Source: Methanoregula sp. PtaU1.Bin051
GTDB lineage: Archaea; Halobacteriota; Methanomicrobia; Methanomicrobiales; Methanospirillaceae
DNA: 64,000 bases
Direction of reading: 5' to 3'
Assembly: GCA_002067895.1 (NCBI GenBank)
Contig: MVRE01000009.1
Span: 1-64,000 of the forward strand
Below the pieces are notes generated by a model that made no database searches, was not told where the DNA came from, and saw only the letters and a list, made by a program, of their open reading frames with translations. Positions 3,783-64,000 of this stretch are shown piece by piece; position 1 is the stretch's first letter, and every line of letters begins with the position of its first letter. The translations under genes and the position numbers were made by a program.

Positions 3783-3912
3783 AGTCATACCTCGAACAAC
3801 AATGGGTCTGTGGTATGGCTATTTAAAAATGACCAAATTTTCAGGAAAAGCGATGATCAAATGTGGGCACCGTCCTGAAGAATTGTAATCAGATCATTTT
3901 AATTGAAAATCT

Positions 3913-7505: not shown

Positions 7506-7661
7506 GTTCACATACCTCGAACAGTTGACACTCTCTAATGAGGTTAATTAAACTTGTTCAATTCTTCCGAGAACGAACGGGCAGAAAACGGATCGGGCAA
7601 TCCTGTGTTGTAACAATAAATTTTGAACAATGTTCCAAATTAATGATCGAACCATAACTCA

Positions 7662-45942: not shown

Positions 45943-45958
45943 GATTATATTTCTCTCC

Positions 45959-47188
45959 TTAATCCGGGTAGCTGAATGTGCCGTTCTTTGTTACATCATA
46001 CGATGAACCGAGGAACTCTGTCACGAATTCCTGGTGAATCGCAGACGGGTCGATATCCGCGAACTGATCCGGGTAGAACCATTTGGCTACCCGGGCCCGG
46101 GCTGCCGGGTACGTAAGCCCGTTGGTGTACCGGTAGCTGAGCACGTAAACGCGCCTGTTCTTGATCGCGGGGACTTCCTGCAGTGCCGGGTGGGATATAA
46201 GTTCGTTATATTGAGTGCTAAGTTCGGTGACGTTGTCGGCAGAATAACTGCCGGCATAGGCAACGCCAAGGATCACATCGGGTTTCTGCTGGGCCAGCCA
46301 TTCGATATCGATGGTTCCCTGCGGGTTTTTCAGATTTGAGGCAACATTGATGCCACCGGCATCCGTGCAGTAGAAGCTGTAATGCTCGGCATCCGATACC
46401 GTTCTCCGCTCGTTGCTGCGTTCGGTGAAGCTGGTGGACCAGACATCCACAAAGACACGGACCTTCCTGTCTTCCGGCACCTGTGCGAGGCGTTTGTCGA
46501 TCTCCGCCATCCAGCGATCATGCCATTTTTCGTACGCACCCGACCGGTCTGTCCGGTTGAGAAGGTACCCCAGTTTCCTCATCTCGGGAACAAGTGTCCA
46601 TGGCCGGATGAAATCCAGGCGGATGACCGGCACTCCCTGCGGCATGCGCTTTTCGAAGAATTCCGATCCCGGGCCAAGCATGGTGTACGTGAGGAGGGCA
46701 TCGGGTTTGCATGCAAGGATCTTCTCGAAGTCCGGTTCGTACGGTCCCCCTCCACCGATATTTACTTTTGTGCGAATTTCCGGAACAACCACAGCATCCT
46801 GCAGGGCACTGTTGGCGACTCCGACCACGAGGTCTTCGGCATCAAGCGGCTTTATGGCATGGAAGTTATAAGCCACGATCCGGTTAAGAGGCTTTACAAT
46901 GGTTACTGTTTTACCTGCGGTATCGGTGATCTGTCTTGGGTATTCCGGATAATGACTAACCGCATCAGCAAGATGTCCTGCCAAGAGCTGGCTGCTCTCT
47001 TCGTTCAGGTGTTTTTCCGAGCAGTACAGCAGGATCTCTTCTCTCATTATCTTTTGTGCGGCAGCATGGATCTCATCCGTTGTCTGTGGCACATATCCTT
47101 CATGTGTTACCGGAACCGCCCAGGCGTGCATGCAGAATGCACAGGAGAGTGCCAATGCAAGTACAAACACCCTCCCGCCCGGAATCAT
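45959..47188 (-). CDS. Substrate-binding protein 1 with N-terminal extension
   Basis: A 409-aa secreted binding protein. The signal peptide MIPGGRVFVLALALSCAF ends near MHAWA, without a lipobox. Residues ~30-90 form a conserved helical extension (TTDEIHAAAQKIMREEILLY... HYPEYPRQITD) shared by three paralogues here and absent from the lipoproteins at 23 and 29 kb. The PF01497 domain follows (GKTVTIVKPLNRIVAYN, GGGGPYEPDFEKILACKPDA) and ends WFYPDQFADIDPSAI. Its ATG overlaps the stop of the PGF-CTERM gene (ATGA), which decides the start. It delivers ligand to the permease 16 nt downstream. Confidence 0.88.
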   Translation of the reverse strand: MIPGGRVFVLALALSCAFCMHAWAVPVTHEGYVPQTTDEIHAAAQKIMREEILLYCSEKHLNEESSQLLAGHLADAVSHYPEYPRQITDTAGKTVTIVKPLNRIVAYNFHAIKPLDAEDLVVGVANSALQDAVVVPEIRTKVNIGGGGPYEPDFEKILACKPDALLTYTMLGPGSEFFEKRMPQGVPVIRLDFIRPWTLVPEMRKLGYLLNRTDRSGAYEKWHDRWMAEIDKRLAQVPEDRKVRVFVDVWSTSFTERSNERRTVSDAEHYSFYCTDAGGINVASNLKNPQGTIDIEWLAQQKPDVILGVAYAGSYSADNVTELSTQYNELISHPALQEVPAIKNRRVYVLSYRYTNGLTYPAARARVAKWFYPDQFADIDPSAIHQEFVTEFLGSSYDVTKNGTFSYPD

Positions 47189-47706
47189 ACATGTTTCCCC
47201 GTATTGCAGAAGCAATATGTTATTGTGCAGACCGCGAGCAGGATAATCGGTATACCAAAACCAGGCGATTTCTGTGCGCCTGTACATGAGGATGTATCAG
47301 CACCAGGAGTTACAAGAAGCGTTGCCGGTATCGTCCCGCTTGTTTTTGCTCCTACATCCTCCCATCTGCCATTGATGTACCCGCAGCCGGCTGATGGCAT
47401 TAATATGGTGTACTTAATCTCCCTTTCACCTGTCATTGCGAATATAACGGTCTGGCCATCCCGTTTTACGGCATCGGCTGCATGCGACGTGCCTGAAAAA
47501 GTGAAGCCCTCCGGGAGTGTCTCGATAACGCCCCCGAAAAACGATGGGGGTATTGTGAGAGTCACGGTGACAGATTCTTCCGGTCCCGTTGAGACAGGCA
47601 AAATAGTCCGCATGATCTGCTGGTCAGCTGCATTCACCGGAGAACCGAGCATGGCAACAAGGACGACGCAGGTGATCAGTACGGGCATCCGGCGGAAGAG
47701 ATTCAT
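47185..47706 (-). CDS. Surface protein with PGF-CTERM-like anchor
   Basis: A 173-aa exported protein. It has a signal peptide (MPVLITCVVLVAMLGSPVNAA), a beta-rich domain of ~110 residues (ESVTVTLTIPPSFFGG, LPEGFTFSGTSHAADAVKRD, EREIKYTILMPSAG), and a C-terminal PGFGIPIILLAVCTITYCF helix with a short tail. That tail matches the PGF-CTERM signal processed by archaeosortase A. The stop overlaps the start of binding protein 1, so production is coupled. It may be a surface receptor or shuttle for the ligand, comparable to NEAT or cohesin-like proteins, but no family is recognised. Confidence 0.78.
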   Translation of the reverse strand: MNLFRRMPVLITCVVLVAMLGSPVNAADQQIMRTILPVSTGPEESVTVTLTIPPSFFGGVIETLPEGFTFSGTSHAADAVKRDGQTVIFAMTGEREIKYTILMPSAGCGYINGRWEDVGAKTSGTIPATLLVTPGADTSSCTGAQKSPGFGIPIILLAVCTITYCFCNTGKHV

Positions 47707-47846
47707 GCAGAACTCTTTGATCCCGGTTCTTAAAAATATGTTTATTTGTAATACATAATCTGATGAAATAAAAAAAATGACATAGAACTTACTCGATTGC
47801 CTGCCAAGGGCATCCTGTTCTAGGCTGACCTTTACACCTTTTTTAA

Positions 47847-49082
47847 TCAGGCTGGATATGTATACACACCATAGCGCCTGACATCAAACGAAGCGTTGAG
47901 GAAACGGTTCATGTAATCCTGATGGATCTCTTTTGGATCCATATCTCTGAACAGCTCCGGATGGAATCATTTCGCAATCTGCGCCCGTGCCGCCGGATAT
48001 GCCAGACTGTTCGTGTAAAGCCAGCAGATAATGTATACCCTCTTGTTTTTAATCGCTGAAATTTCCTGCAGGGCGGGATGGTTCATCAGTTCATCATACT
48101 GGTCCCTGAGTTCACGGATATCCTCAGTACCATATCCACCTTTTCTCGCCACTCCGAGAATGATGTCAGGGTTCTGCTGGGCCAGCCACTCAATATCGAC
48201 GGCTCCCTGAGGATTCGTGAGATTTTCTGCGATGTTTACTGCCCCGTTCTCTGTCAGGTACAGGTTGTAATGCGATGATGCCATACCTGAAGAGACCGTT
48301 GTACGAACGTTCGGATCCGAACCCTTCCCTACCCATGAATCGATAAATACCCGGACCTTCTCGTTGTCAGGGAGCATGTCAATCCGCTGCTGTATTTTCG
48401 TCATCCGGGAGTTATACCAGTCCGCGTATGCCTGTGACCGGTCGGTCCGGTTGATCAGATAACCCAGTTTGTTCAATTCTGAAACCATGGCATGCGGACG
48501 GCTGTAGTCCTGCCGTATGACCGGAACATTATCCGGCAAACGGTTCTCAAAGAAATCCCTGCCGGGACCAACCTGCGTGTAGGTGAGGAGCAGGTCAGGT
48601 TTGCATGCAAGAATTGTCTCCATGTCGGGCTCGACACCTCCCCCGCCCCCGACATTAACCTTTGTCGTCAGCCAGGGGATGATCCGGGCTTCCCGCATCG
48701 CGGCATCGGCAATTCCGATCGTCTGGTTTTCAGCCGCAAGCACCCCCAGCGGGAAATAATTAAACGCGATTATCCGCGACAGTGGGCGATAAATGGTTAT
48801 CGTGGTTCCGGCAGTATCGGTGATCCTTCTTGGATATTCCGGATAATATTTAATGGCACTGGCAATCTGGTCTGCGGACAGGCACGATTTTTTTTCATTT
48901 AAGTATTCACCTGCCAAATACGAGAGAATCTCTTCTTTCAGGATCTGGCCTGCATACGTATGTATCTCATTGTTATTCCGGGGAATCTCTTCCTGAACTG
49001 CGGCCGATGCTGTGCAAATAATGAAGAAGCATGCAACCCATATAATCCCAAAAAATACGACAAAAAAATTGATTGCCTTCAT
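47847..49082 (-). pseudogene. Substrate-binding protein 2, interrupted by in-frame TGA
   Basis: A paralogue of the binding proteins on both sides, with signal peptide, the helical N-terminal extension (NNEIHTYAGQILKEEILSYL) and the PF01497 domain. Translation meets TGA at 47967-47969, where both relatives have Trp (AKWFYP and VQWIYP). The frame then stays intact and homologous for 39 codons (FHPELFRDMDPKEIHQDYM... ) to its natural stop at 47847. A single G-to-A change from TGG explains this. The 371-aa truncated product may still fold. A sequencing error or readthrough cannot be ruled out. Confidence 0.85.
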
Positions 49083-49156
49083 CAGTTACACTTCCCTAAC
49101 TTTAACAAGGATTTTTGCCGGCCATCGAATCTGCCCATATATTCCCGCTCCCATTG

Positions 49157-50437
49157 TTATGGATAGTGGAACGCTCCATTTCTCGTAACATCGTAGGAAA
49201 CGTTATAGAACATGTCGACATACTCCTGGTGAATTGCATCGGGGTTCATGTCAGCAAAAAGATCGGGGTAAATCCATTGCACGGCCTGTGCGCGTGCAGC
49301 AGGGTATGAAAGGCCCATGACATAACGGAAACTCAGGATATAGATCCTTTTGTTTTTCACTGCCTGTACTTCCTTTAGAGCTGGCAGGCCGGAAAGTTCG
49401 TCGTATTGTGATTTGAGGTCGCCAGAATTTTCTGCTGCATATCCTCCATGGTATGCCGATCCGAGGATTATTTCCGGGTCCTGCTGTGCAATCCATTCAA
49501 TATCAACAGTGCCTTGGGGATTCTGAAGATCGGCGGCAATGTTGATCCCACCGTTGTCGCTGCAGTAGGACCGGCTGTAGTACATGCTGTCTGAGACTGT
49601 CCGCCGCTCATTACCGGTTCCGGTGAATGTATTGGACCAGACGTCGATGAAGACCCGGGCCTTTTCACCCTGCGGGATGGTGTCAAGACGGCGGTTGATC
49701 TCGTTGATAATTCCGTCATGCCATGACACATATGCAGATGAACGGTCGGTCCGGTTGAGGAGGTACCCCAGTTTCTTCATTTCGGTTGCGAGCGTGGACG
49801 GGCGGATGAAATCGAGACGGATGACCGGTACTCCGTCAGGCAACCGGTCTTCATAAAATTCTCGTCCCTGCCCAAACTGGGTGTATGTGAGGATGGCGTC
49901 CGGGTGGAGCGAGAGGATCTTCTCAAAGTCGGGCCCGTTCTGTCCGCCGCCGACATCTGTTTTTTCCGCCAGCCATGGGGCAAGGGTCGCCCCTTCGGGA
50001 ACTACGCTCGAAACACTAGTTATGCAATCGCCGGCATCAAGTACTCCAAGGGGCATCGAGTTGACTGCAACGATATTTTTAAGCGGCCGGATGATCGTGA
50101 TGGTAGTATTGGCAGAATCAGTTATCCGCCTTGGATACGCGGGATAGTGCTTCACAGCATCTGCCAGATCTTCTGAAGAGAGGTGGGGTATAGATGTGCC
50201 GGTGTATTCTGCGGAACAATAGCGGAGTATCTCGTCCCTCATGACGACCTGCGCGTATTCATGTATCTCTTCCGTTGTCTGCGGAATACCGTCCGCAGCG
50301 AGGGCAGCTGATGCCGGCGGAGGGAAAATGCAGCAACAGATTATAAAGAGCTGAATGAAGATATGTGACCGGGGCACGGGCAGAAAATGACCATTGGCTT
50401 GTGCGGAAAATTGAAGTATGCTGCATGAACGCTTCAT
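49157..50437 (-). CDS. Substrate-binding protein 3 with N-terminal extension
   Basis: A 426-aa paralogue with a long signal sequence (hydrophobic FIQLFIICCCIFPPPASAA), the helical extension (TTEEIHEYAQVVMRDEILRYC), and the PF01497 domain with NRTDRSSAYVSWHD and VFIDVWSNTFTGTGNERRTV. The last segment is near-identical to binding protein 1 and may line the ligand site. It starts ~100 nt after the cobN stop, with GGTGA upstream of the ATG. Three similar binding proteins for one permease suggest several related ligands. Confidence 0.88.
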   Translation of the reverse strand: MKRSCSILQFSAQANGHFLPVPRSHIFIQLFIICCCIFPPPASAALAADGIPQTTEEIHEYAQVVMRDEILRYCSAEYTGTSIPHLSSEDLADAVKHYPAYPRRITDSANTTITIIRPLKNIVAVNSMPLGVLDAGDCITSVSSVVPEGATLAPWLAEKTDVGGGQNGPDFEKILSLHPDAILTYTQFGQGREFYEDRLPDGVPVIRLDFIRPSTLATEMKKLGYLLNRTDRSSAYVSWHDGIINEINRRLDTIPQGEKARVFIDVWSNTFTGTGNERRTVSDSMYYSRSYCSDNGGINIAADLQNPQGTVDIEWIAQQDPEIILGSAYHGGYAAENSGDLKSQYDELSGLPALKEVQAVKNKRIYILSFRYVMGLSYPAARAQAVQWIYPDLFADMNPDAIHQEYVDMFYNVSYDVTRNGAFHYP

Positions 50438-50540: not shown

Positions 50541-53500
50541 TTACAGCGCCTCCTCGATGTCGCCTTCCATCTGCCGGTATGCCTCGCGGAGTTTCTCCAG
50601 TTCCTCTTCTGTCGCCTCCCAGTATCCCCTCTGCTCGGCCTCCATGAGCCTCTCGGTCAGTCCCAGTGCGGCGAACTTGTTGTTCTCCATCAGCCGTTTT
50701 CTCATCTCCTCGTCAAACACGAACCGCTCGGCAATCGAGGACCAGATCCAGTTATCGACCGCATGGGTTGTTGCAGCAAGACCGAGCGTATTGTATACCC
50801 GCTCCTCGATCTGCTGCGCCCCGTGGTAGTCGTGCTTGAGCATCTCGTCGATCCATTTGGGGTTCAGGAGCCGCGTGCGGGTGCCACGCTTGATGACATC
50901 GCGAACGTCCTCCGTATATACAACCTCCTTGGTCGTATCGGAGATCATCATCATCGGTGTCCTGCCGGAGACTGTCTCGACAGCCTTGTTCAGGCCGCCG
51001 AAATATTCGAAGTAGTGGTCGAGGTCGACGATTTCGCGGTCGTGCCGGTCACGAATCTGGGAGACAACCTGTACTGTCCTTACGTTGTTCTCGTACAGCG
51101 CCCGCTGGCTCTGGCCGTGGATGGTATCGACATAGACATGGGACATCGAGGCCATGTAGACATCGGCAAGATCTTTCTCATCCTTCCAGACACTGTCCTC
51201 GGTGAGCGCGAGGATGCGGGTGCCGTACTCACCGGCATGGGGGCCGTAGATGCGTGCTGTCGAGAGTTTTTTTGCGGTCTTCTCATCGATCAACCCCTCC
51301 GCGAGCTGGTCGTTTAACTTCTCAAGATTCTCCTTCGAATGTTTCCTGACAAAGTTCATCTCATCCGGTTCATCGAGCGCGGATACCTTTGCAACGGCAT
51401 TGTTGATCATCTGCATGATATTGGGGAACATGTCGCGGAAGAAGCCGCAGATCGAGACATGGCAGTCGATCCGGGGCCGCCCGAGATCCTCAAGCGGGAT
51501 GACCGTCAGCTGCGGTGCCCACGCCCCGGCCTTCCGGCTCACCTTCACGCCCATGTAGGTGAGAATCTGTCCCACGGTCTCGCCGCCGCTGTTGCTGGTC
51601 TCGAACCCCCAGAGCACTGTGCCGACGCGCTCGGGATAGGTCCCTTCACGCTCAAGGTATTTTGTTATCGTATTCTGCGCGATCTCCGCCCCGCGTTCAA
51701 ATGCGGTCTGAGTCGGGATCTTTGTCGGATCGAACTGGAGGAGGTTCCCGCCGGTCGGAAGCACCTCGGGCTTTCTTATAACATCGCCCCCGACCCGTGG
51801 CGCGATATACTCCGCGTTCAGCCCGCGGATGCAGTTTCTCAGCTCAAGGCTGTTGTCCGCATAGTCCTTTGCCAGGGCAAGGCCGAGATCGAGGGTCGCC
51901 CGCAAATCAGGCTCCCGGTCCGGTCCTACCGCAGCAAGGGCAACGGCCGATTCCATCCCCTCGTCAATCAGGGTGTTGACGACCTGCGCGCTTGTCTTGT
52001 CAACGCCATCCAGCGCGCTGGCATAATGCCCCTTGTCGCGGATGGCCGTGTCGTACGGGATCCCCCGGGACTCGGCGATGATCCGGTTCAGCGACCTGAC
52101 CCCTTCCCGGTCATACCGGATGACGAACTCGACATACCTCTTGTAGGCCTCGGGTTTGTACTGCTCCCCGAGCACGTGCAGCCCCTGCGGGATAATCGAG
52201 CGCTTCATGTCGTATACCTGCTCGTGGATGGCGTGAATGCTCTTCGTGTCGAAGTGGAGCTCTGTCGCAAGGGCAAGGATCTTCTCCCGCGTACGTGACT
52301 CGCGTACCTCCTGCCCGAGCCGTTCCGCCTCCTCGTGCTCGGCAATCAGGTCCTCGAGCTCGATATACTTCTCGTAGAGGTCTGAAGTCGAGAACGGGGG
52401 TGAGTTATAGCTGAGCATGGTACCGTAGAGCCGGCGCTTGGCGATGGTTGCTTCGGAGGTGTTGACGACCGTGTAGATATACAGGTGCGGCATGTTGCCG
52501 ATGAGGATGTCGGGGAAACACTTGTCGCTCATGCCGATCTCCTTTCCCTTCATGAACTCGGCAAGGCCGTGCGTGCCGACGTGGAAGACGAGGTCTGCTT
52601 TCCAGACTTCCTCGAGCCAGCGATAGAAAGCGATATACTGGTGGTGGGGAGGCTTGGTCTTGTCATGGGCCGCCTTTGCCACATCGTCCTCGGTCAGCGG
52701 GGGGCGGGCCGGCTGGAGTCCGATAAGGACGTTGCCGAACTGCAGGCCGGGCAGGACGAACTTCCCGTCATGCGTCATGACGGTCCCTGGTGCCGGGCCC
52801 CAGACGCTCTCCACATCCTCCCGAACCTGCGGGTGGAGCGAGTTGAAGATCTTCAGGTATGACGGGACATCCCACGAAAAACTGGCCGCTGCGGTCTTCT
52901 CGATACCGTGCCAGTCTCCGGAGTTGACGATCGCTTTTTCTTCGAAGAGCTCGTGGAGCTTCTGATCCGGGATCTCGACTGTGTATCCCTCGTCGCGGAG
53001 GGTCTCAAGCATCCGCTTTACGCTCACGAACGTGTCGAGATAGGATGCTCCGCCGGTGTTGCCGTCACCGGGCGGGTAGCTGTAGATGATGATTGCCACC
53101 CGCCGCTCGCAATTCGGGATCTTCCGGAGCCGGATCCAGTTCCTGATGCGGGATGTGATCCGATCCACGCGATCGGGGATGACACCGATCTCCTTGCAGT
53201 CTTCTCCTTCGATTGAAGCCGGGAGCATGCCACAGATGGGTATGGGCTCGATGCACCCGTCGAGTTCGGGCCAGATGACGGACATGATCGATGCAAAGGG
53301 CGAGATGCCTGCAACGGATTCATCCCACTCCTTTACGTCCTGCCCGAAGAGCGAGACCGGGGCAAAGACCGGCACGTTCAGTTTTTTTAACAGCACCTGC
53401 GTCAGTTCCGGGTTTCCGCCGAGCGGGCCGCCGTTGATCCGGAACCACTTGAGGTTGATAAGGGCATCCACGATGGGACGGTCGCCTTCCATGAAATATT

Positions 53501-54359
53501 TCCCGATGGAGTGGAGGTTGTTCTCCGGGTTGGCGTAGACCGGTATGATGTTCCAGTCGGAAAGGCTCCGGATCAGGGCCCTGACAGAGGGGATGTTCTG
53601 GTCGAGGTGCATGCCGCCATGGAACATGATCCCCACTGTCGGCTTTCCCACCGAGTACCCGATGGCTTTGAAGTAATCCGCGCGTTCCGTGAAGTAGCCG
53701 AGGTCCGGGTGATAGATGGCATAATCTGGATGATGCAACGGGGGCTGTGGATCGGGAAGATCCGGGTGCCCGAGATACGTGCGGAGGAGGAGGATGAAAA
53801 GCTGGTAATAATTCTCCAGTCCTCCCTGCCGCCAGTACTCGATGCAGCGTGTGTAGTTGGCGATATCCTCCCTGCTCATTGGTGTTGACGCCGTGGCGAG
53901 CACGGATTCCATATTCCAGTCCCGCGCAGGCTGGTCGCTGGTTCCTGCATCTTCCCGCCGCACCGGGCGTGGGAATGCCTCTTCCACACCGGTTACACCG
54001 GCCGTTTTCTTCTTTGCTGCAGCCTTCTCGATGATCCTTCTGCCGGAAAGGGCGCCAAGCCGCGTTATCTCGAAAAGGTTGGAGAACGGCCCCATCATGT
54101 TGAGGCAGATGCAACTGCTCTCCCGCATCGCCCGCATGGCAAGTTCGTTGGCCTTGCCGATGCCACGGATGTCGAGGAGCACGCAGTCGGATGCCTGCAG
54201 GTGTTTTAAGATCAGCATCTCGTCAGCGTTCTCGTTCTCGATCTGGTGAGGGTAGTAGAGCCGGAAGTCAAGGTCGATTCCATGATCCTTCCTCACCTTG
54301 TGGGCGGCCTCAAGAATGGTTGGAGAGGAAACTGTGGAAATGCAGGTAATCTTGATCAT
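50541..54359 (-). CDS. cobN: CobN/ChlH-type chelatase large subunit
   Basis: A 1272-aa porphyrin/corrin-binding subunit of the CobN/BchH family. The N-terminus (MIKITCISTVSS) has a Rossmann-like segment. Family segments include GIMFHGGMHLDQNIPSVRAL, HVGTHGLAEFMKGKEIGMSD, the conserved RIDCHVSICGFFRDMFPNIM and HAGEYGTRIL. The enzyme inserts Co or Mg into a ring with the ChlI/ChlD motor; those genes are ~9 kb downstream on the same strand. ATG 54359 fits the family start, without an SD. It could be an aerobic-type cobaltochelatase used outside de novo B12 synthesis, because anaerobes normally use CbiX/CbiK. Exact metal is unknown. Confidence 0.9.
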   Translation of the reverse strand: MIKITCISTVSSPTILEAAHKVRKDHGIDLDFRLYYPHQIENENADEMLILKHLQASDCVLLDIRGIGKANELAMRAMRESSCICLNMMGPFSNLFEITRLGALSGRRIIEKAAAKKKTAGVTGVEEAFPRPVRREDAGTSDQPARDWNMESVLATASTPMSREDIANYTRCIEYWRQGGLENYYQLFILLLRTYLGHPDLPDPQPPLHHPDYAIYHPDLGYFTERADYFKAIGYSVGKPTVGIMFHGGMHLDQNIPSVRALIRSLSDWNIIPVYANPENNLHSIGKYFMEGDRPIVDALINLKWFRINGGPLGGNPELTQVLLKKLNVPVFAPVSLFGQDVKEWDESVAGISPFASIMSVIWPELDGCIEPIPICGMLPASIEGEDCKEIGVIPDRVDRITSRIRNWIRLRKIPNCERRVAIIIYSYPPGDGNTGGASYLDTFVSVKRMLETLRDEGYTVEIPDQKLHELFEEKAIVNSGDWHGIEKTAAASFSWDVPSYLKIFNSLHPQVREDVESVWGPAPGTVMTHDGKFVLPGLQFGNVLIGLQPARPPLTEDDVAKAAHDKTKPPHHQYIAFYRWLEEVWKADLVFHVGTHGLAEFMKGKEIGMSDKCFPDILIGNMPHLYIYTVVNTSEATIAKRRLYGTMLSYNSPPFSTSDLYEKYIELEDLIAEHEEAERLGQEVRESRTREKILALATELHFDTKSIHAIHEQVYDMKRSIIPQGLHVLGEQYKPEAYKRYVEFVIRYDREGVRSLNRIIAESRGIPYDTAIRDKGHYASALDGVDKTSAQVVNTLIDEGMESAVALAAVGPDREPDLRATLDLGLALAKDYADNSLELRNCIRGLNAEYIAPRVGGDVIRKPEVLPTGGNLLQFDPTKIPTQTAFERGAEIAQNTITKYLEREGTYPERVGTVLWGFETSNSGGETVGQILTYMGVKVSRKAGAWAPQLTVIPLEDLGRPRIDCHVSICGFFRDMFPNIMQMINNAVAKVSALDEPDEMNFVRKHSKENLEKLNDQLAEGLIDEKTAKKLSTARIYGPHAGEYGTRILALTEDSVWKDEKDLADVYMASMSHVYVDTIHGQSQRALYENNVRTVQVVSQIRDRHDREIVDLDHYFEYFGGLNKAVETVSGRTPMMMISDTTKEVVYTEDVRDVIKRGTRTRLLNPKWIDEMLKHDYHGAQQIEERVYNTLGLAATTHAVDNWIWSSIAERFVFDEEMRKRLMENNKFAALGLTERLMEAEQRGYWEATEEELEKLREAYRQMEGDIEEAL

Positions 54360-54365
54360 AGTATA

Positions 54366-54456
54366 ATTAAGTCTCACTAAGGTGTTATTTAATCTGACCA
54401 TATCCAATCTTATGCTGACATGATTAGTATGCTCCATGTTAAGCGTAAGACTTAAT
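54366..54456. promoter_or_regulatory. Inverted ATTAAGTCTYAC sites between divergent genes
   Basis: ATTAAGTCTCAC at 54366-54377 and its inverse complement copy GTAAGACTTAAT at 54445-54456 match in 11 of 12 positions and lie beside the cobN start and the methyltransferase start. A TTAATCTGA direct repeat also occurs at 54389-54397 and 54452-54460. This symmetric arrangement suggests shared control of cobN and the divergent methyltransferase. Confidence 0.5.
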
Positions 54457-54511
54457 CTGAAAGAGTTCAAAGATACTCTTACTTATTTAAGTACAGGAAA
54501 GAGAAAATTCC

Positions 54512-55292: not shown

Positions 55293-55853
55293 TCAGGATG
55301 TAATGGGGACTTCTATCCTGCTGATCCTCTTGCCATCCTTTGTTACGAAGTCGAGGAAGAAGGTCGACCCGACAAAGTCGGTCCTGTTGATACCGAAATT
55401 TCCTGAAGTAGTACTATATAGACCCGGTGTGAGTATTTTGGTTGAGCAGTTCTCAATAGTGATATATGCTATGTCCCCCGCCTTGAAGGCGCTCACATCC
55501 CGCGTTCCTTTTGTGGCTCTGAACCAAGTAATGCCATCCTTGTTGTCTTTCTGGATGAGGGTCTGGTTGATCTCGGTCGTGTAAGTATCCGACTCGATGC
55601 TGTACATGTTCGAGGACGGCGTAAGCAGGATCTTGAACTCGCCGATAGTGAGCGTGTCCCCGCCGTTATGATAGATGGTCATCCCCCCCGACTGGCTGTA
55701 CTCGGCATTGAACGTGACCTGCGGCGCGGTCTTCTGCGACGACCCCATCCCGCCTGCAAATGCCGAGACGACGGCGGCGATGATGATAGTGACCACCAGC
55801 ATCAGCATGACGCCGACGACCGGCGATACAGCGCTCTCTTGATCATGGTACAT
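55293..55853 (-). CDS. Archaeal type IV pilin, type B, pair 2
   Basis: A 186-aa pilin. After a short leader (MYHDQES) comes the archaeal pilin N-terminal core AVSPVVGVMLMLVVTIII, a class III signal in which the peptidase cuts before the hydrophobic helix. The beta-rich head begins QVTFNAEYSQSGGMTIYHNG and ends FLDFVTKDGKRISRIEVPI. Its head resembles the other ~180-aa pilins (type B). ATG 55853 lies 1 nt after the stop of the type A pilin. It is the last gene of a four-pilin operon and is convergent with the methyltransferase. Confidence 0.88.
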   Translation of the reverse strand: MYHDQESAVSPVVGVMLMLVVTIIIAAVVSAFAGGMGSSQKTAPQVTFNAEYSQSGGMTIYHNGGDTLTIGEFKILLTPSSNMYSIESDTYTTEINQTLIQKDNKDGITWFRATKGTRDVSAFKAGDIAYITIENCSTKILTPGLYSTTSGNFGINRTDFVGSTFFLDFVTKDGKRISRIEVPITS

Positions 55854-55854
55854 C

Positions 55855-56556
55855 TTACGCACCCCGCACTGCGACATTGTCATCATAGATCACCTTTCCG
55901 GAAGGCGCGTGGATGATTTTAACATTGACGACATCCCCTTCGCGGAGATTGAACCAGTCCTTGCCAAGCATTGCCTGCATGGAATCGATGTCCGTGGCAT
56001 ATGTGTAGCCGGTGCCATCGACGTACTGGTAGGTCGCCGTATTCGGGCCATATCCACCATATGACGGATCAGATGTCGGCCCCCACAACCCCATCGGATA
56101 CACGCGGAGGGTGGTACCTGCAAAGAGGGTGTAGTTGCCGAAGTCCTGCGAGACATCCTTCTGGTTGAACATCTTGAACGTCACGCCCGGCCCTGTGCCC
56201 AGCGGCGAGATTTGGGATGTGACACCAGCAATACGCTTGTTCGGGACATTCGGCAGGATAGTCGTGGAATTTTTCACTCCGTTCTTTGCCGTCCATGATG
56301 TAGTGATCTTCAGGTCCCTTGTCGGGATCGGTTCGCTGACACCGGTGATCTTCATATCGAAGTGGCTGCCGTAGTAAAGGCCGGTGTTCACAATCGTTGT
56401 CTCTGCGGTCATTGTCGGCGCCTTCTTTTCGCTGCCGGTGATGCTGCCGGCAAACCCGCTGACCACGGCCGCGATGATAATCGTGACCACCAGCATCAGC
56501 ATGATGCCGACCACGGGCGAGACTGCGTCTTCTTTTAGGATCTGTTTTGTTTTCAT
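55855..56556 (-). CDS. Archaeal type IV pilin, type A, pair 2
   Basis: A 233-aa pilin with leader MKTKQILKED and the core AVSPVVGIMLMLVVTIII. The large head has SHFDMKITGVSEPIPTRDLK, a Gly/Tyr-rich PSYGGYGPNTATYQY segment, YATDIDSMQAMLG and ends NVKIIHAPSGKVIYDDNVAV, features shared with the type A pilins at 57106 and 62710. GAGGTGA 5 nt upstream supports ATG 56556. Confidence 0.88.
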   Translation of the reverse strand: MKTKQILKEDAVSPVVGIMLMLVVTIIIAAVVSGFAGSITGSEKKAPTMTAETTIVNTGLYYGSHFDMKITGVSEPIPTRDLKITTSWTAKNGVKNSTTILPNVPNKRIAGVTSQISPLGTGPGVTFKMFNQKDVSQDFGNYTLFAGTTLRVYPMGLWGPTSDPSYGGYGPNTATYQYVDGTGYTYATDIDSMQAMLGKDWFNLREGDVVNVKIIHAPSGKVIYDDNVAVRGA

Positions 56557-56566
56557 CTCTCTCACC

Positions 56567-57109
56567 TCACGGGACAATCGTCACCTCGGTGCGCGCGAAG
56601 ACGCGCCCGGCAGTGTCCGAGAACTCGAGCCAGAAGGTCTTGCCGACATTTGCGCTGGAATCAAAGTAGTATGTGGAGGTGGATCCCACCTGGAGCATAT
56701 TATTATGATGCTTGGGCGGCAGGATATACGCCTTGTCACCGGGCGAGAATGATTTCGTTCCTGAGTATCCTTCGGCACGGGTCCAGGCCTTGGTATTATC
56801 ACCGGTTGCATCGGTGATCATGGACTTGTTGACCACCCAGACCATGTGCTCGGCATTCCCAAAGGTCTTGGTAGGTCGCACAGTAACGATCGTGTCCATC
56901 GTGGCAATCGAACTGCCACCGAGATGTTCGACAGTCATGCCGTTTGCCTGGCTGTAGGTGCCCCTGATCGTAACCGTTGGCGACTTGTCCTTTGCTGCTG
57001 TGAGCCCGCCGGCAAATGCGGAGACGACGGCCGCGATGATGATGACAACAACGAGCATCAGCATCACGCCAACGACCGGCGAGACGGCAGCCGTGTTTGT
57101 ATGCTTCAT
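56567..57109 (-). CDS. Archaeal type IV pilin, type B, pair 1
   Basis: A 180-aa pilin (MKHTNTA, core AVSPVVGVMLMLVVVIII). The head has IRGTYSQANGMTVEHLGGSS and ends NVGKTFWLEFSDTAGRVFAR, strongly similar to the type B pilin at 63414. ATG 57109 overlaps the stop of the preceding type A pilin as ATGA, which sets the start and couples the pair. Confidence 0.88.
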   Translation of the reverse strand: MKHTNTAAVSPVVGVMLMLVVVIIIAAVVSAFAGGLTAAKDKSPTVTIRGTYSQANGMTVEHLGGSSIATMDTIVTVRPTKTFGNAEHMVWVVNKSMITDATGDNTKAWTRAEGYSGTKSFSPGDKAYILPPKHHNNMLQVGSTSTYYFDSSANVGKTFWLEFSDTAGRVFARTEVTIVP

Positions 57110-57828
57110 ACTGAACTCCCTTCCACCGGCACTTTGCCGTCGTAGATGATCCGGCCCGTCGGGATGTGGACGAACTTGACGTTCACGATATCGCCGGGCC
57201 TTAATATGTTCCAGTTGTAACCGAGGATCGCCTGCATTGCATCCCAATCGGTGCCGTAGACATACGCGGTCCCGTCTGTATACGTAAACCGTGTCTGGGG
57301 GGTTACGCCATAACCTCCATAGCTGCTGGAATATCCGTAAGCCGAATTATGCAGCCTCGTATTGGCCATCAGGCTGTAATTCCCCCACATCTGCTCCAAT
57401 GCATATTTCCCTGAAGAGTTCCATGCCGAAGGAACACCGGGACCGAATCCGAGCGGTGAGTGGTATGGCCATGATGCAGTACTCGACGTATGCGTGTTGG
57501 GAGACCCGGTCGTGTTCGGCCCTGTCACAACCGAACCGCCGGATATGCCGCTTGCGTTCCTCCAGCTCGTCACAATCTTGATGTCCTTTGTCGGGATCGG
57601 CTCGCTGACTCCGAGCACGTCCACGTGGAAGTGGCTCCCGCCCCACGTGCCGTCGTTCACGATGTTCACCTTGAGGGTGGCAGACGGCGCCTTTTCAGTG
57701 GTCTTGCCCATGCCACCGGCAAACGCGCTGACAACCGCCGCAATAATAATGGTAACGACAAGCATCAGCATCACGCCGACAACCGGCGAGACGGCATCGT
57801 CGCCCACGGATTTTCGTGTATGTCTCAA
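57106..57828 (-). CDS. Archaeal type IV pilin, type A, pair 1
   Basis: A 240-aa pilin. I chose TTG 57828 (MRHTRKSVGDD) because GAGGTGAT lies 4 nt upstream and it gives a leader of 11 residues; the in-frame ATG 57852 has no SD. The core is AVSPVVGVMLMLVVTIII. The head has SHFHVDVLGVSEPIPTKDIK, a Tyr/Ser/Gly-rich loop, GTDWDAMQAILGYNWNIL and the end NVKFVHIPTGRIIYDGK. First gene of the minus-strand pilin operon. Confidence 0.88.
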   Translation of the reverse strand: MRHTRKSVGDDAVSPVVGVMLMLVVTIIIAAVVSAFAGGMGKTTEKAPSATLKVNIVNDGTWGGSHFHVDVLGVSEPIPTKDIKIVTSWRNASGISGGSVVTGPNTTGSPNTHTSSTASWPYHSPLGFGPGVPSAWNSSGKYALEQMWGNYSLMANTRLHNSAYGYSSSYGGYGVTPQTRFTYTDGTAYVYGTDWDAMQAILGYNWNILRPGDIVNVKFVHIPTGRIIYDGKVPVEGSSV

Positions 57829-58215
57829 TACTATCACCTCGAAATGTTTCATCAAAAATTACCGGTGTGTTTGTATTTCGTAGCACACCTCTGAGATTCA
57901 GTAGCACCTATTCTTATTTAAATCTTTATTGGGCTGCTCAAGTAAGACAGTCTATTTAATTCCTCTGATCTTTTATTGCACTGATATCTCCCTTTTCTGG
58001 AATTCTGAACATCCAGTACACAGAGTCGTTTCCGTCGCGATTTATTAATTCACGATTATTCTTTCTTCCATAAGAGGAGGATCCGGTACTACAAAAAGGA
58101 AGATATTTATTACCTTGTAGCCGATTGTAATTCGATTGTACATCAATAATGATCTGAAACAGGAAACCGCCCCGCTGCCGGCAGACAATCCGGTGCGGGG
58201 AACAAGGAAACCACC
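57829..58215. other. Divergent promoter region of the pilus genes
   Basis: No gene is seen. On the minus side there is a TTTAAATAAG box (near 57915) and a GGTGTG/CACACC inverted repeat at 57864-57869 and 57884-57889 in the pilin leader. On the plus side a GATATTTATTA box lies near 58103, ahead of the ATPase. The region is AT-rich. Confidence 0.6.
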
Positions 58216-60174
58216 ATGCCGGCCGGACTTCTAATCCCTGCCCTGTGCGCGCCTGCGCTCCTCTGCCTCAACGGCAGGTTCTCGGCCGTCACCGGCATCG
58301 CAAAGACCCTGCAGGAATCCATCGGCATGAAATTCAAATCCACCCTGCCGGTAAAGAAAGATAAGCCGGCAAGTACTGAGGCCGGAACACAAACTATTAC
58401 CGGCATGTACTCCGGCATTATCACGACCCTTTCGGAACCGTCATGGAAGGGAATCGGCGCGTTTGGCGCCGTCTCCGCAATGGCCATCATCACCGGCAGT
58501 GCCGTACTCTTCATCGATCTCCCCCTCCCGCTCATGACGGTTCTGGGCATCATCTCCCTTGCAGCGCTCACTCTCTCGGTCTCCGTAATCCAGCGCCGGC
58601 GTACAAAAGGCGCATGGCTCCCGGAGAATGCCGGTCCGCCAATCCCGGGGATCTCTTCACTGATACAAAAGACAGAAACTGCCGGGCCGTGCGCACCATC
58701 CGCCCCTGAATTGCCGGAAGGAACGGCCCGGCTCCTCCCGTACCTTCCCAACGATCCATCGCCATCAGTCATCTCCCAGTACTGGGTGCAGGAGCCATTC
58801 TCGTACGTAAAAGTCGCCCGTGCAGGGACGGAAGGGTTCAAGTACATTGTCGTGGAACCGCCGATCACGAAGAAGGAGAAGACAATCCTGCAGGAGACCT
58901 ATGCGAGACTTAGGGACTTCATCGTATACGATGCGACCGAAAGGGACCAGGACCCGAAATTCAAGCCCGAACTGATCAGAAAGATCATGCGGCAGTTCGA
59001 TCCGGACCTGACCGACGAGCAGCTCCTCATCATGGACTATTACCTGAAACGGGACCTCTCCGGTTACGGCCCCTTGGAGACGATCATGCTGGACCCGGAC
59101 ATCGAGGACATCAGCTGCAACGGGTACGAGCTTCCGGTCTTTGTCTTCGACCGGTCGTTCGGGAGCCTGCCTACAAGCATCGCATTCGGCAGGGACGAGA
59201 TCAACCAGTTCGTCCTCAAGCTTGCCCAGAAGGCAAACAAGCAGGTATCGCTCTCCAACCCGCTGGTCGATGCAACGCTTCCGGACGGCGCCCGGGTCCA
59301 GATTACGTACAGCGATGTTGTATCCACCAAGGGGAGCTCGTTCACGATACGGAAATTCCGGGCCGAGCCGATGACCCCGCTCGACCTGATCAGGTACGGG
59401 ACCTACAACGCGGAGACCCTCGCATTCCTCTGGCTGGCAATCGAGCACCGGAAAAGCCTGCTGGTTGTCGGCGGGACGGCGAGCGGCAAGACCTCGACCA
59501 TGAACGCCGTCTCGCTCTTTATTCCCCAGAACGCAAAGATCGTCTCGCTCGAGGATACCCGGGAGATCCAGCTCCCGCACAAAAACTGGCTCCCGACCCA
59601 GACCCGGGAGCTGAACGTCACCGGGATCAAGGGGGACATCGATCTCTTCTCGCTCTTAAAAGCCTGCATGCGCCAGCGCCCCGAGTACATCATTGTCGGG
59701 GAAGTGCGCGGCGCCGAGGCCCAGACGCTCTTCCAGGCCATGAACACCGGCCATGCCACGCTCTCAACCATCCACGCGGGGAGCGTGCACGAGGCGATCA
59801 ACCGGCTCACCCATGATCCCATCAACGTCCCGTCCGTCATGTTCACCGCGCTCGATGTCGTGGTCGTCCAGTCCATCTACACCGCAGGCAAGATCCGGAT
59901 CCGGCGCTGCCTCTCCATTCACGAGATCGAGGTGAACGCAAAGGGGGAGATTATCCCGGTCCTCCTGTACGAGTGGGACGTCCGTACCGACACGTTCCGG
60001 AAGGTTGCAGAGAAGTCCCGGGTGCTTGACGAGATCGCGTTCGTGCGCGGATGGTCCCCCGAAGAACTGGAGCAGCAGGTAAAGAAGCGGGAGGAGTTCT
60101 TTGCATGGGCGCTCGAAGTGCAGCCGCCGGACATCCGGGACCTTGCGAATGCGATCCACGATCTCGGTGAATAA
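58216..60174 (+). CDS. Type IV pilus/secretion ATPase with membrane anchor
   Basis: A 652-aa ATPase of the GspE/PilB/ArlI superfamily that powers pilin assembly. The catalytic half has Walker A GGTASGKTS (~417), the Asp box SLEDTREIQLPH, Walker B YIIVGEVRGAEAQ and the His box HATLSTIHAGS. The first ~120 residues are unusual: a hydrophobic start, then a predicted helical hairpin (AVSAMAIITGSAVLFI and TVLGIISLAALTLSVSVI) ending in QRRR. Such ATPases are normally cytoplasmic. AAGGA upstream supports ATG 58216. TadC-like gene follows after 1 nt. Confidence 0.92.
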   Translation: MPAGLLIPALCAPALLCLNGRFSAVTGIAKTLQESIGMKFKSTLPVKKDKPASTEAGTQTITGMYSGIITTLSEPSWKGIGAFGAVSAMAIITGSAVLFIDLPLPLMTVLGIISLAALTLSVSVIQRRRTKGAWLPENAGPPIPGISSLIQKTETAGPCAPSAPELPEGTARLLPYLPNDPSPSVISQYWVQEPFSYVKVARAGTEGFKYIVVEPPITKKEKTILQETYARLRDFIVYDATERDQDPKFKPELIRKIMRQFDPDLTDEQLLIMDYYLKRDLSGYGPLETIMLDPDIEDISCNGYELPVFVFDRSFGSLPTSIAFGRDEINQFVLKLAQKANKQVSLSNPLVDATLPDGARVQITYSDVVSTKGSSFTIRKFRAEPMTPLDLIRYGTYNAETLAFLWLAIEHRKSLLVVGGTASGKTSTMNAVSLFIPQNAKIVSLEDTREIQLPHKNWLPTQTRELNVTGIKGDIDLFSLLKACMRQRPEYIIVGEVRGAEAQTLFQAMNTGHATLSTIHAGSVHEAINRLTHDPINVPSVMFTALDVVVVQSIYTAGKIRIRRCLSIHEIEVNAKGEIIPVLLYEWDVRTDTFRKVAEKSRVLDEIAFVRGWSPEELEQQVKKREEFFAWALEVQPPDIRDLANAIHDLGE

Positions 60175-60175
60175 G

Positions 60176-62035
60176 ATGCAGCTGCCCCCTGCAATCCGGA
60201 ACCTTGAGAAGAAGATCAACGATACGGAGATGCTGATCCATGGGAGCCACCTCCCCGGAGCCCTGCGTTCCGCCCACATGGCTACGGTTGCGGAAGAGTA
60301 CCTCCGGTCGATCCGGTTCAACGTTGCAGTAACCGTTCTGGGTTTTTGCGCCATGTATGTATTCTTCCAGATAAGCGGTCTCAAACTGGATCTTCTCGGC
60401 CTGTCCACGTCGGACTCTGTATTCTGGATCCTGCTTTTCCTCGTCCTCGTACCTGGCCAGTACGCGCTCCAGATGCAATACCCGGCAATCCTGGCCCATG
60501 GGCGGAAGACGAAGATCGAGCTCGACCTGCCCTATGCCATCTCGTACATGCAGGCGCTTTCCACGACTATGCCCCCATACGAGATAATCCGGAAAGTGTA
60601 CGAGGAGGCGGACATGTTCAACGAGGTCTCCCGGGAGTTCGGGATGATCGTCCGTGACGTCGAGCTCTTCGGCGACGACCTGCTGACTGCCATGAAGAAC
60701 CTCCAGCACACCACGCCCTCGCCGGCGCTACGGGATTTCTTAAACGATCTCGGGATCGTCTTCGACAGCGGGGGCGACATCACCTCATACCTGGGGGCAA
60801 AGACCGAGTTCTTCCGGGAGCAGGCAAAGCGGGAGCTGGAGCTGGTCCTAAAGACCATCGAGATCATGGCCGAGGTCTATGTCTCGGCATTTGTCGCCGG
60901 GCCGATTGCGCTTATCATCATGATCGTGGCGCAGGGGATGACGAACGCCAAATCCATGGAATGGATACTGCCGTTCATGTATGTCTGTATTCCCGCGGGA
61001 GCAATCGTCATGATCTGGCTGCTCTCTATAATGCTGCCACCGGAGAACCTCGAGGTGACGAGGAAGGAGATCGCAGATTACGATTTCGGGACTTCAATTC
61101 CGGAAGTTCCCGAAGGGCAGAATGGCGTTCCTGGAACTGCGGATGAGAAATTTTTTAAAAAAATAGCCGCACAGAAGCAGCGCAACCGGATCCTGAACCG
61201 GCTCAGAAATCCCCTGCGGGCGTACATCACGACCTATGACTACAGCATCATTGCCGGCGGGATGGTCGCACTCGTCATTGTCCTTCTTTTCCAGACCGGC
61301 TGGTTCGATACCATCTTCCCCCACAATGTCTTTGAAGCTGTAATCTGTGTCCTCATTATCGGATTCATGGCACCGGTCGCGCTTGCCTACGAGGGGCGAC
61401 GCTGGTATGTCCGCGACGTGGAGTCGCACCTGCCCGAGTTCCTGCGCGAGCTCTCGGACATGAAGGACATCGGGCTCACCCTGCAGGAGTCCATCAAGAG
61501 GATCTCCGGTGCAAAACTCGGCCTGCTCTCTTCGGAACTCTCAGTCGCGTCCCGCGACATCAGCGCCGGCACCAATGTGAATGCGGCACTCGTCCGGATG
61601 GAGGAACGGATCGGGCTTGTCTCAGTCAAGCGCGCCATGTCCCTCCTCGTACGCGCCAGCGAGATCACCACGAACCTGCGCCAGATCTTCATGATCGCAA
61701 TCACTGACTTCGAATACTACCTCAAACTCAAGAGCGAGCGGGCGAACACGACAATCGTGTACGTGATGATCATCTACCTTTCTTTCGGGATCTACCTGTA
61801 CACCGCCTACCAGCTCAACGTGCCGTTCCTCGAGAGTTTCAAGGGTCAGAGCATGAGCATCACCATGGACATGGCCGGCAATGTCACCGACATGTTCCGT
61901 ATCGGGATCATCCTCGGCGCGTTCTCCGGCATCATGGCAGGGCAGTTCTCCTCAAATTCTGTCCTCTGCGGGTTCAAGCACTCCATCGTCCTCCTTTCTG
62001 CTGCGCTCGTGCTCTTCGTGTATTTCGTGTCGTAA
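60176..62035 (+). CDS. TadC/PilC-type pilus platform protein
   Basis: A 619-aa integral membrane protein with two T2SS-F domains. The first is around residues 120-260 (LPYAISYMQALSTTMPPYEI, EVSREFGMIVRDVELFGDDL). The second is around 400-560 (HLPEFLRELSDMKDIGLTLQ). Helix clusters follow each domain. This is the size of archaeal ArlJ/TadC fusions that anchor the pilus and interact with the ATPase. ATG 60176 is 1 nt after the ATPase stop. Confidence 0.92.
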   Translation: MQLPPAIRNLEKKINDTEMLIHGSHLPGALRSAHMATVAEEYLRSIRFNVAVTVLGFCAMYVFFQISGLKLDLLGLSTSDSVFWILLFLVLVPGQYALQMQYPAILAHGRKTKIELDLPYAISYMQALSTTMPPYEIIRKVYEEADMFNEVSREFGMIVRDVELFGDDLLTAMKNLQHTTPSPALRDFLNDLGIVFDSGGDITSYLGAKTEFFREQAKRELELVLKTIEIMAEVYVSAFVAGPIALIIMIVAQGMTNAKSMEWILPFMYVCIPAGAIVMIWLLSIMLPPENLEVTRKEIADYDFGTSIPEVPEGQNGVPGTADEKFFKKIAAQKQRNRILNRLRNPLRAYITTYDYSIIAGGMVALVIVLLFQTGWFDTIFPHNVFEAVICVLIIGFMAPVALAYEGRRWYVRDVESHLPEFLRELSDMKDIGLTLQESIKRISGAKLGLLSSELSVASRDISAGTNVNAALVRMEERIGLVSVKRAMSLLVRASEITTNLRQIFMIAITDFEYYLKLKSERANTTIVYVMIIYLSFGIYLYTAYQLNVPFLESFKGQSMSITMDMAGNVTDMFRIGIILGAFSGIMAGQFSSNSVLCGFKHSIVLLSAALVLFVYFVS

Positions 62036-62168: not shown

Positions 62169-62273
62169 GAACGTTATCTGCTCCGGAAAGTTATAACGTT
62201 CTGTCATTGTTTTCTGAATAAACCCAAATATTTTAAATATTAATAGCACTCAACACTCACTCAAGCTAGCTTG
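62169..62273. promoter_or_regulatory. Palindromes and TATA box ahead of the NikR-like/pilin operon
   Basis: GAACGTTAT at 62169-62177 and ATAACGTTC at 62193-62201 form a perfect 9-bp inverted repeat. A TATA-like TTTTAAATATTAA lies at 62231-62243. The 12-bp palindrome CAAGCTAGCTTG is at 62262-62273, about where transcription would begin. The two palindromes flank the promoter, a typical operator layout. Confidence 0.55.
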
Positions 62274-62308
62274 CTTTAAGACAAATCCAATTGTTTGGAG
62301 AATCGGTC

Positions 62309-62674
62309 ATGACACAAGATGAGCGCTCTGCCAACGGATTCCTTTCCGTTGGACAACATTGCCGGTATTCACATCAGGAAGAGTGGGTGAGAGGGAGGAA
62401 GCTGACAATGCAGGAGACGGATGAGATTGAGCAGGGATTGATGACGGTAGTTTATGACAGTAACCGACCTAAGCTGCGCTCTGTACTTCTCGTTATTCAA
62501 CATGAGTTCAATGAGATTATCCGGGCATCGTTCGACTCACGGTTGAATGACAAGCACTCCGTTGAAGTAATTGTCCTTCGGGGAAATGGCAGCCGGTTTC
62601 AACCATTGACGGAGAGGCTGATTTCCCAGAAGGGCGTGATGTCAGTGGAGCTCAGACCATTGCAGGCCGGATGA
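62309..62674 (+). CDS. NikR C-domain homologue without DNA-binding domain or Ni ligands
   Basis: A 121-aa protein. Residues ~48-121 fit the ACT-like nickel-binding domain of NikR: LMTVVYDSNRPKLRSVLLVI-QHE, then SVEVIVLRGNG and RLISQKGVMSVELRPL. The ribbon-helix-helix DNA-binding part that precedes it in NikR is replaced by ~45 residues without an RHH pattern. The nickel ligands His-x-His and Cys of NikR align with Asp, Arg and Ser (SFDSRLNDKHSVE), so it should not bind Ni in that way. GGAG upstream supports ATG 62309. It is the first gene of a pilin operon and overlaps or abuts the next gene. Confidence 0.75.
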   Translation: MTQDERSANGFLSVGQHCRYSHQEEWVRGRKLTMQETDEIEQGLMTVVYDSNRPKLRSVLLVIQHEFNEIIRASFDSRLNDKHSVEVIVLRGNGSRFQPLTERLISQKGVMSVELRPLQAG

Positions 62675-62709
62675 ACAGATCGCGTAATGACAGGAAAAGG
62701 ATGCGAAAC

Positions 62710-63414
62710 ATGAAAAAACTGGAAATAATTGTCAGTGAAGACGCGGTATCACCGGTAATCGGCATCATGCTGATGCTGGTGGTGGTAATTATCATCGCTG
62801 CGGTCGTGAGCGGTTTTGCGGGGGGGCTTGTCACCGGGGGTGACAAAGCCCCGCAGATCAGTGCAGAATGCAGGATCGTGAACGGCGGCACCCACCAGAA
62901 CAGTGAATTCGATTGCGCTATCAACGGCGCGTCTGAACCGGTACTTACAAGGGATATCGAGATCGCCACTTCGTGGCGTGCTTCAGATGGCACCACCGGT
63001 GGCTCACGAATCACAGGGCCAAACGTAAGTACCGGATCGTTTGCAAACACCCACTTCTATGGCGGCACTACCACGTATCATTCGCCGCTGGGATTTGGTA
63101 CTGGTGTTAACCGGAGCAGCTCGGGCAGCCCGTTCTACCCGGACCAGATGTACGGCAATTATTCTCTCACCATCGGTACTCGGATGCACAATGTGCCGTA
63201 CGGGTATAGCGGAGGGTATGGCGTCACACCCTCGACACGTTACCAGTACACCTCGGGCTCCCGCTACAATTATGACACGGATATGGACGGGGTCCAGGCA
63301 ATTCTTGGCAGGGAATGGTGGCACCTTAGAGCCGGCGATATCGTGAAGGTAAAGATGATCCACCGCCCCAGCGGAAAAGTGATCTTCGACCAGAATATTC
63401 CGGTGGTGGGATAA
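62710..63414 (+). CDS. Archaeal type IV pilin, type A, pair 3
   Basis: A 234-aa pilin (MKKLEIIVSED, core AVSPVIGIMLMLVVVIII). The head resembles those of the other type A pilins: SEFDCAINGASEPVLTRDIE, YGYSGGYGVTPSTRYQYTSG, DTDMDGVQAILGREWWHL and VKMIHRPSGKVIFDQN. AAGG ~9 nt upstream favours ATG 62710; an ATG at 62671 overlapping the stop of the NikR-like gene (ATGA) would give a longer leader. It includes a Cys pair-like CRIVN...CAING not seen in the others. Confidence 0.88.
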   Translation: MKKLEIIVSEDAVSPVIGIMLMLVVVIIIAAVVSGFAGGLVTGGDKAPQISAECRIVNGGTHQNSEFDCAINGASEPVLTRDIEIATSWRASDGTTGGSRITGPNVSTGSFANTHFYGGTTTYHSPLGFGTGVNRSSSGSPFYPDQMYGNYSLTIGTRMHNVPYGYSGGYGVTPSTRYQYTSGSRYNYDTDMDGVQAILGREWWHLRAGDIVKVKMIHRPSGKVIFDQNIPVVG

Positions 63415-63950
63415 TGGGCCGTATGCAGAAGAACGATGCAGTTTCCCCTGTTGTCGGGGTTATGCTGATGCTGGTGGTCACGATCATCATAGCCGCTGTT
63501 GTCAGCGCATTCGCCGGCGGTTTCTCCAAGGAGACGACAAAGGCACCTCAGGCCACCATCCGCGGCACGTACAGCATCACCGGGGGAATGATAATAGAAC
63601 ACACCGGAGGGGATCCTATTGGAACGCCCTCGATCAAAGTCATCGTTCACCCTGCCGAATCGTTCGGGACTTCAACCCATGTGATCGACACGGTCAACAT
63701 GAGCACAATCACGGACAGTTCAGGTGCCCAATGGCTCAAGGATAACGGCCTCTTCGGGGTCAAGACCTTCCGTGCAGGAGATTCCGCCTATGTCCTGCCT
63801 CCATATCATGAGGCTCCGTACCTCCAGCCAAGTGCCAGCTATGTCTCCTGGTTTAATAATACCGCAAATGTCGGTAAGACCTTCTGGATCGAGATGCTGG
63901 ATCCGAGAGGGAAGATGATCGCAAAGACCGAAGTGACAATCGATCCATGA
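63414..63950 (+). CDS. Archaeal type IV pilin, type B, pair 3
   Basis: A 178-aa pilin (MGRMQKND, core AVSPVVGVMLMLVVTIII). The head IRGTYSITGGMIIEHTGGDP and the end NVGKTFWIEMLDPRGKMIAK are close to the type B pilin at 56567. The start overlaps the type A stop by one base (TAATG) as in a coupled pair. Confidence 0.9.
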   Translation: MGRMQKNDAVSPVVGVMLMLVVTIIIAAVVSAFAGGFSKETTKAPQATIRGTYSITGGMIIEHTGGDPIGTPSIKVIVHPAESFGTSTHVIDTVNMSTITDSSGAQWLKDNGLFGVKTFRAGDSAYVLPPYHEAPYLQPSASYVSWFNNTANVGKTFWIEMLDPRGKMIAKTEVTIDP

Positions 63951-64000
63951 CGGTACGCCGGCAGGTAAGAAAGCGCAGGGGGCTTATCGTCAGACCGGAG
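63947..64000 (+). CDS. Start of a further gene, coupled to the last pilin
   Basis: An ATG overlapping the pilin stop (ATGA) opens a frame that stays open to the window end (MTVRRQVRKRRGLIVRPE). The basic N-terminus could be the leader of another exported or pilus protein. Only 18 codons are visible, so nothing more can be said. Confidence 0.45.
   Translation, partial: MTVRRQVRKRRGLIVRPE

Follow-up and report, generated by a model that had tools for sequence, protein, structure and literature searches.

Nickel is central to methanogenesis, and its uptake in methanogens is, to our knowledge, poorly understood. In the nickel site of NikR, one ligand (H76) comes from the adjoining subunit. Archaeal NikR sites are said to have been predicted by Rodionov in 2006. 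Some regulators act, as a general principle, through DNA-binding-dead subunits; we know of no NikR example. A survey of 301 methanogen genomes (PMC10617489) reports NikR in 98% of them and cites Rodionov 2006 as having tied NikR sites to Nik/CbiMNQO. The open-licence literature, which largely leaves out the subscription journals, held nothing relevant on NikR with pilins or on NikR without its DNA-binding domain, in line with an earlier sequence-only reading of this DNA that took the coupling of a repurposed regulatory domain to pilins to be undescribed.

Here we analyze an orphan NikR_C gene and its surroundings in a window of 64,000 nucleotides (positions 1 to 64,000 of contig MVRE01000009.1, Methanoregula sp. 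PtaU1.Bin051; features in Table 1). The window genome (G000) contains McrA and is thus that of a methanogen, and it also encodes two full-length NikR proteins (C22 and C3).

Results

The window protein matches the Pfam NikR_C profile (PF08753) with 65 bits against a cut-off of 22 (E 7e-18), over residues 43–115 of the 62309–62674 ORF. AlphaFold2, run on a single chain of the 88-residue protein with an alignment of eight relatives, predicts a confident beta-alpha-beta-beta-alpha-beta domain (mean pLDDT 86.5, pTM 0.75). NikR structures account for 49 of the top 50 PDB matches to this predicted fold, including ranks 1–48, and the Foldseek comparison with 1q5y yields an E-value of 4e-8 and TM scores of 0.78/0.83. 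The ACT-like NikR C-domain discerned in the sequence-only reading is thus confirmed by profile and predicted fold. The NCBIfam NikR model gives 60 bits at best, below its cut-off of 111. Judged by sequence, the window protein belongs to the NikR_C domain family without being a NikR.

The RHH domain, already held to be missing, has no Pfam match in the ORF. A profile built from 55 NikR N-domains, with which a genuine NikR scores 117 bits as positive control, detects no RHH domain, hidden or frameshifted ones included, when the 500 nt preceding each of the eight family members are read in all three forward frames. Three nickel ligands of E. coli NikR, H87, H89 and C95, are replaced by D, R and S in the window protein, exactly as had been read from the letters, and the ligands are not conserved at shifted positions either; H76 is kept as H. 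This last histidine is gone in five of the seven relatives, and the four ligands of the square-planar site (H87, H89, C95, H76') occur together in none of the eight members. The H87 position reads D, Q, N, C, H, S, R and R across the family.

Table 1. Annotated features of the window (coordinates in window positions)
Feature	Position	Strand	Basis
Orphan NikR_C gene, 88 aa, best start	62408..62674	+	Pfam domain 62435-62653, AlphaFold2, RHH scan
In-frame upstream part of the 62309-62674 ORF, probably 5' leader	62309..62407	+	Without RHH similarity
Shine-Dalgarno-like AGAGGGAGGA, 8 nt before ATG 62408	62390..62399	+	Sequence; same arrangement in G139
Operator TTAAGACAAATCCAATTGT	62276..62294	+	Motif search, model scan
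Second, weaker, overlapping operator copy TTAAAGCAAGCTAGCTTGA (AAGCTAGCTT palindrome)	62261..62279	-	Model scan
TATA-like TTTTAAATA	62231..62239	+	Sequence inspection; also at matching place in G139
Type IV pilin (Pilin_N), first of pair; true start may be internal ATG	62671..63414	+	Pfam
Type IV pilin (Pilin_N), second of pair	63414..63950	+	Pfam
Peripla_BP_2 (BtuF/FecB-like) binding protein start, runs to about 65035 on contig	63947..64000	+	
Pilus assembly ATPase (T2SSE)	58216..60174	+	Pfam
Pilus membrane platform protein (T2SSF)	60101..62035	+	Pfam
Four more type IV pilins (two pairs)	55293..57855	-	
CobN/Mg-chelatase-like large subunit	50541..54470	-	
ABC ATPase, FecCD permease, three Peripla_BP_2 binding proteins	44123..50437	-	

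The ORF had originally been taken to span 62309–62674; its frame and stop hold, and its start likely lies about 100 nt further downstream. Translation from ATG 62408 yields an 88-aa protein that corresponds to the 85-aa relative in the sister genome G139, which has GGGAGG where the window has its Shine-Dalgarno-like element. A possible ribosome site also precedes ATG 62309, and ATG 62408 is probably the gene start, as the better, not the sole, candidate. In G139 the leader combines an operator copy with the first ∼10 codons (MHIMEGF) of that genome's cbiM; none of 300 shuffles equals this 64-nt alignment. The segment (L043:10494-10560) looks like either a duplicated piece of promoter or what is left of a cbiM. 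A cbiM fossil of the same kind in the window leader found no support, the similarity being not significant and the match inconsistent. Rfam detects no known structured RNA in the window leader.

Profile searches locate RHH-less NikR_C genes in 8 of 232 genomes of the order, all within one family: the window genome and G139 from one genus, and G158, G163, G172, G181, G186 and G190 from another. Their proteins are 85–103 aa long and score 127–147 bits with a profile of the eight sequences, and the other matches listed among the 232 genomes reach at most 112.5; short frames at contig ends (e.g. in G017) were left out of the family. A phylum-wide search of 393 genomes returned no further short members among the top matches listed, where distant ones could escape, and no relatives were found in scans of viral contigs or of GTDB contigs (the latter with one sequence and then a two-sequence alignment). 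The gene is missing from the other six genomes of the window's genus. Full-length NikR is also present in the genomes that carry the orphan gene, and methyl-CoM reductase alpha genes (G186:C99:756-1157 and G181:C7:104776-105156) lie ∼6–16 kb from orphan loci on the same contigs.

The eight sequences form one clade (bootstrap/SH-aLRT 90/75; recovered in 91% of bootstrap trees), for which a single origin is probable on this phylogeny. In this tree the short clade lies next to the C3-type NikR found in the window's genus, a placement that is unsure in detail with 88 columns and several long branches, including that of the window copy, which is 28–48% identical to its own relatives. dN is smaller than dS in every pair with estimable dS (e.g. 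0.15 versus 0.90 for G190/G163; two pairs are saturated), and window and G139 differ mainly at third codon positions (0.38/0.28/0.59). As these substitution patterns indicate, the clade is under purifying selection. Another clade, lacking the nickel ligands and bearing the RHH domain, was seen at L078:713-1174 (-), L107:421-990 (-), L075:11116-11628 (-), L132:8003-8515 (-) and L098:8747-9187 (+), with a canonical NikR nearby in four of the five genomes.

A same-strand pilin gene follows the orphan NikR_C gene within 1.2 kb at all eight loci and none of the 63 other NikR genes examined (three of which have a pilin upstream), the two sets being phylogenetically non-independent and the 63 genes a non-random sample. 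This is the synteny in other methanogens that had been named as a check on the pilin link. The distance is ≤250 nt in seven of the eight loci; in G186 cbiM and cbiN lie between. In six of the eight genomes at least 120 nt separate the gene from the next one, several with an operator copy in between. In the window the NikR_C stop codon overlaps the first ATG of the next ORF at 62671, which upholds the earlier description of the gene as heading a pilin operon, and the pilin may begin at a later ATG.

As expected of an archaeal type IV pilus operon, the Pilin_N pilins of the window lie near T2SSE and T2SSF genes. A predicted pilin structure, of low confidence (pLDDT 67), has archaeal filaments for a few of its best matches and antibodies for most others, none with E <0.001, and we read no function from it. 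The genes around the orphan loci are of metal or corrinoid type (binding proteins, FecCD, CobN, CbiMN). G139 has CobN, ChlID, two FecCD/ABC sets, a binding protein and a full NikR adjoining a second pilus operon, and other relatives have the same kinds of genes in differing order. CobN/Mg-chelatase-like subunits stand beside FecCD transporters in both the window (50541-54470) and L043 (2198-8255), possibly for nickel or metal-chelate handling. Full-length NikR adjoins pilin pairs and T2SSE/T2SSF at L043:15829-19979 and L079:4003-9786, a second NikR–pili link. Two 689-aa ORFs elsewhere in the window (1719-3788 and 5442-7511, both -) share similar short motifs near their starts and may be a tandem duplication.

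A candidate operator, TTAARACAA-N6-TTGT, precedes the orphan gene exactly in seven of the eight genomes and is changed in G181 (TTAAATCAAAATAAGTTGT). The exact pattern occurs at 13 places in these genomes, 12 in orphan NikR_C loci and one before cbiM, and the reversed control pattern at 3. Scored with a model built without it, the window site at 62276-62294 (+) reaches 23.3, compared with 14.3 for the top-scoring of 400 dinucleotide-shuffled versions of the intergenic stretch; the overlapping site at 62261-62279 (-) also matches the model. The upstream palindromes, through which the sequence-only reading had imagined control of the pilins, are thus meaningful. In a model scan of 1.08 Mb, part of it chosen as holding NikR_C, pilin or cbiM genes, most good sites precede such genes. 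Widened to TTAMRACAA-N6-TTGW to fit the cbiM site, the pattern matches the window genome without mismatch exactly twice, 16 nt before a cbiM match and before NikR_C. Since genome-wide counts fall near the control or background level once one mismatch is allowed, all operator counts rest on exact or model-scored promoter sites.

CbiM is the S component of a Ni/Co ECF transporter. In other families of the order, MHIMEG-type cbiM genes have sites upstream that look similar by eye, and the operator before cbiM is found order-wide, the orphan NikR_C gene in 8 genomes. At loci L160-L212, from several families of the order, the spacing between MHIMEG-type cbiM and an upstream operator-like TTAAAACAA-N6-TTGW hardly varies, and this element is a candidate box for an archaeal metal regulator. 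By their distribution, the palindromes are part of a candidate metal-transport operator and not pilin-specific. As the operator is also that of cbiM across the order, recruitment into an existing metal regulon is the simplest reading. NikR is the leading candidate for binding the operator because nearly every genome has NikR; cbiM could have another regulator.

Discussion

We envisage that a NikR-derived sensor domain has been kept alone at the head of a pilin operon under metal control. In the reading we favor, tentatively and at a little under an even chance, this DNA-binding-dead subunit co-assembles with full-length NikR and tunes a Ni/Co regulon that includes the pili. With its core and NikR fold conserved, the domain would still have the surface by which NikR C-domains form tetramers, from which we infer that the NikR_C protein may join full-length NikR. 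In mixed tetramers, DNA-binding domains would be fewer and nickel sites disrupted, and nickel-dependent repression would weaken. Because its own promoter carries the operator, we propose that metal scarcity would switch on NikR_C, which would then reinforce pili and cbiM expression in the role of anti-repressor or tuning subunit. Nickel, cobalt or metal-chelate uptake would be the purpose of the pili and of the neighboring binding-protein, FecCD and CobN genes. Against this, the domain is divergent in sequence and long-branched, and its tetramer surface may have changed; moreover, with the operator before cbiM order-wide, the regulon works without NikR_C in genomes elsewhere.

The main rival to co-assembly is the sensing of a new ligand, which the sequence-only reading had suggested. 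A stand-alone ACT-like sensor, forming its own dimer or tetramer, could use the former nickel cleft to bind another metal, a metal chelate or corrinoid, or a small molecule, and act on a partner such as a regulator, the pilus ATPase or a transporter. We regard this as possible, if on the unlikely side: replaced ligand positions in a retained fold and core would fit it, as would the transporter and chelatase genes alongside, yet the variability of the replaced positions, as at H87, argues against one common new site there, and the pilins are the only constant partner genes found.

The protein might instead have a non-regulatory structural or chaperone role, as a pilin assembly or coupling factor or as a metal chaperone. 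Pilins are its tightest and most constant association, and the overlap of stop and start in the window is what coupling would look like; the wide gaps at most other loci, several with an intervening operator, show that tight coupling is not the rule, and no complete nickel site is present. We consider this role quite unlikely. Pairing with a separate, non-NikR DNA-binding protein that controls only these pilins through the palindromes is more improbable still, for the highly specific sequence of the operator would suit such a partner, but the same operator stands before cbiM in genomes without NikR_C, so that its binder does not need NikR_C. Least credible of all is a decaying remnant of a NikR duplicate that lies before pilins by chance: loss of RHH and ligands, the long branch of the window copy, the cbiM 5' fragment in G139 and the absence from six genomes of the genus would suit decay, but eight intact frames in two genera, constraint by codon position, and conserved length, operator and neighbors speak against it.

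Returning to the regulatory readings, the pilin position and an operator common to a Ni/Co transporter gene suggest that the pili belong to metal scavenging. The joint proposition, that type IV pili are part of Ni/Co or metal-chelate acquisition within the cbiM regulon and that a NikR domain without DNA or nickel binding serves as a dedicated regulator of that regulon, either as NikR anti-repressor or as new-ligand sensor, seems to us conceivable but clearly short of an even chance. A metal-uptake operator, type IV pili and a pared-down NikR come together here in one conserved arrangement, which opens the question of whether methanogens use pili to acquire nickel or cobalt. It would also offer, as far as the sequences tell, a natural case of a metalloregulator domain persisting without DNA binding or its metal site.

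With NikR from E. coli, Helicobacter pylori and Pyrococcus horikoshii (PDB 1q5y, 2bj7, 2hza, 6mrj) the orphan family shares the C-terminal ACT-like nickel domain by profile and predicted fold, but it lacks RHH and the H87/H89/C95 site, is 85–103 rather than about 140 aa long and sits before pilins. Its closest sequence relatives are the full-length NikR paralogues encoded alongside it (e.g. C22 and C3), yet these have both RHH and the nickel ligands, and no pilins come after their genes. NikR-like paralogues of G158, G159, G180, G185 and G193 have also lost the nickel ligands, but retain RHH, form a separate clade (97/96) and have no downstream pilins. Methanogen Nik/CbiMNQO uptake with NikR (PMC2667541, PMC10617489) is alike as a metal-transport regulon whose cbiM operator appears to be that of this operon, whereas the passages of these surveys considered here mention no pilins or orphan NikR_C. 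In its proposed mode the orphan subunit would, by analogy, resemble regulators with DNA-binding-dead subunits that act by poisoning mixed oligomers.
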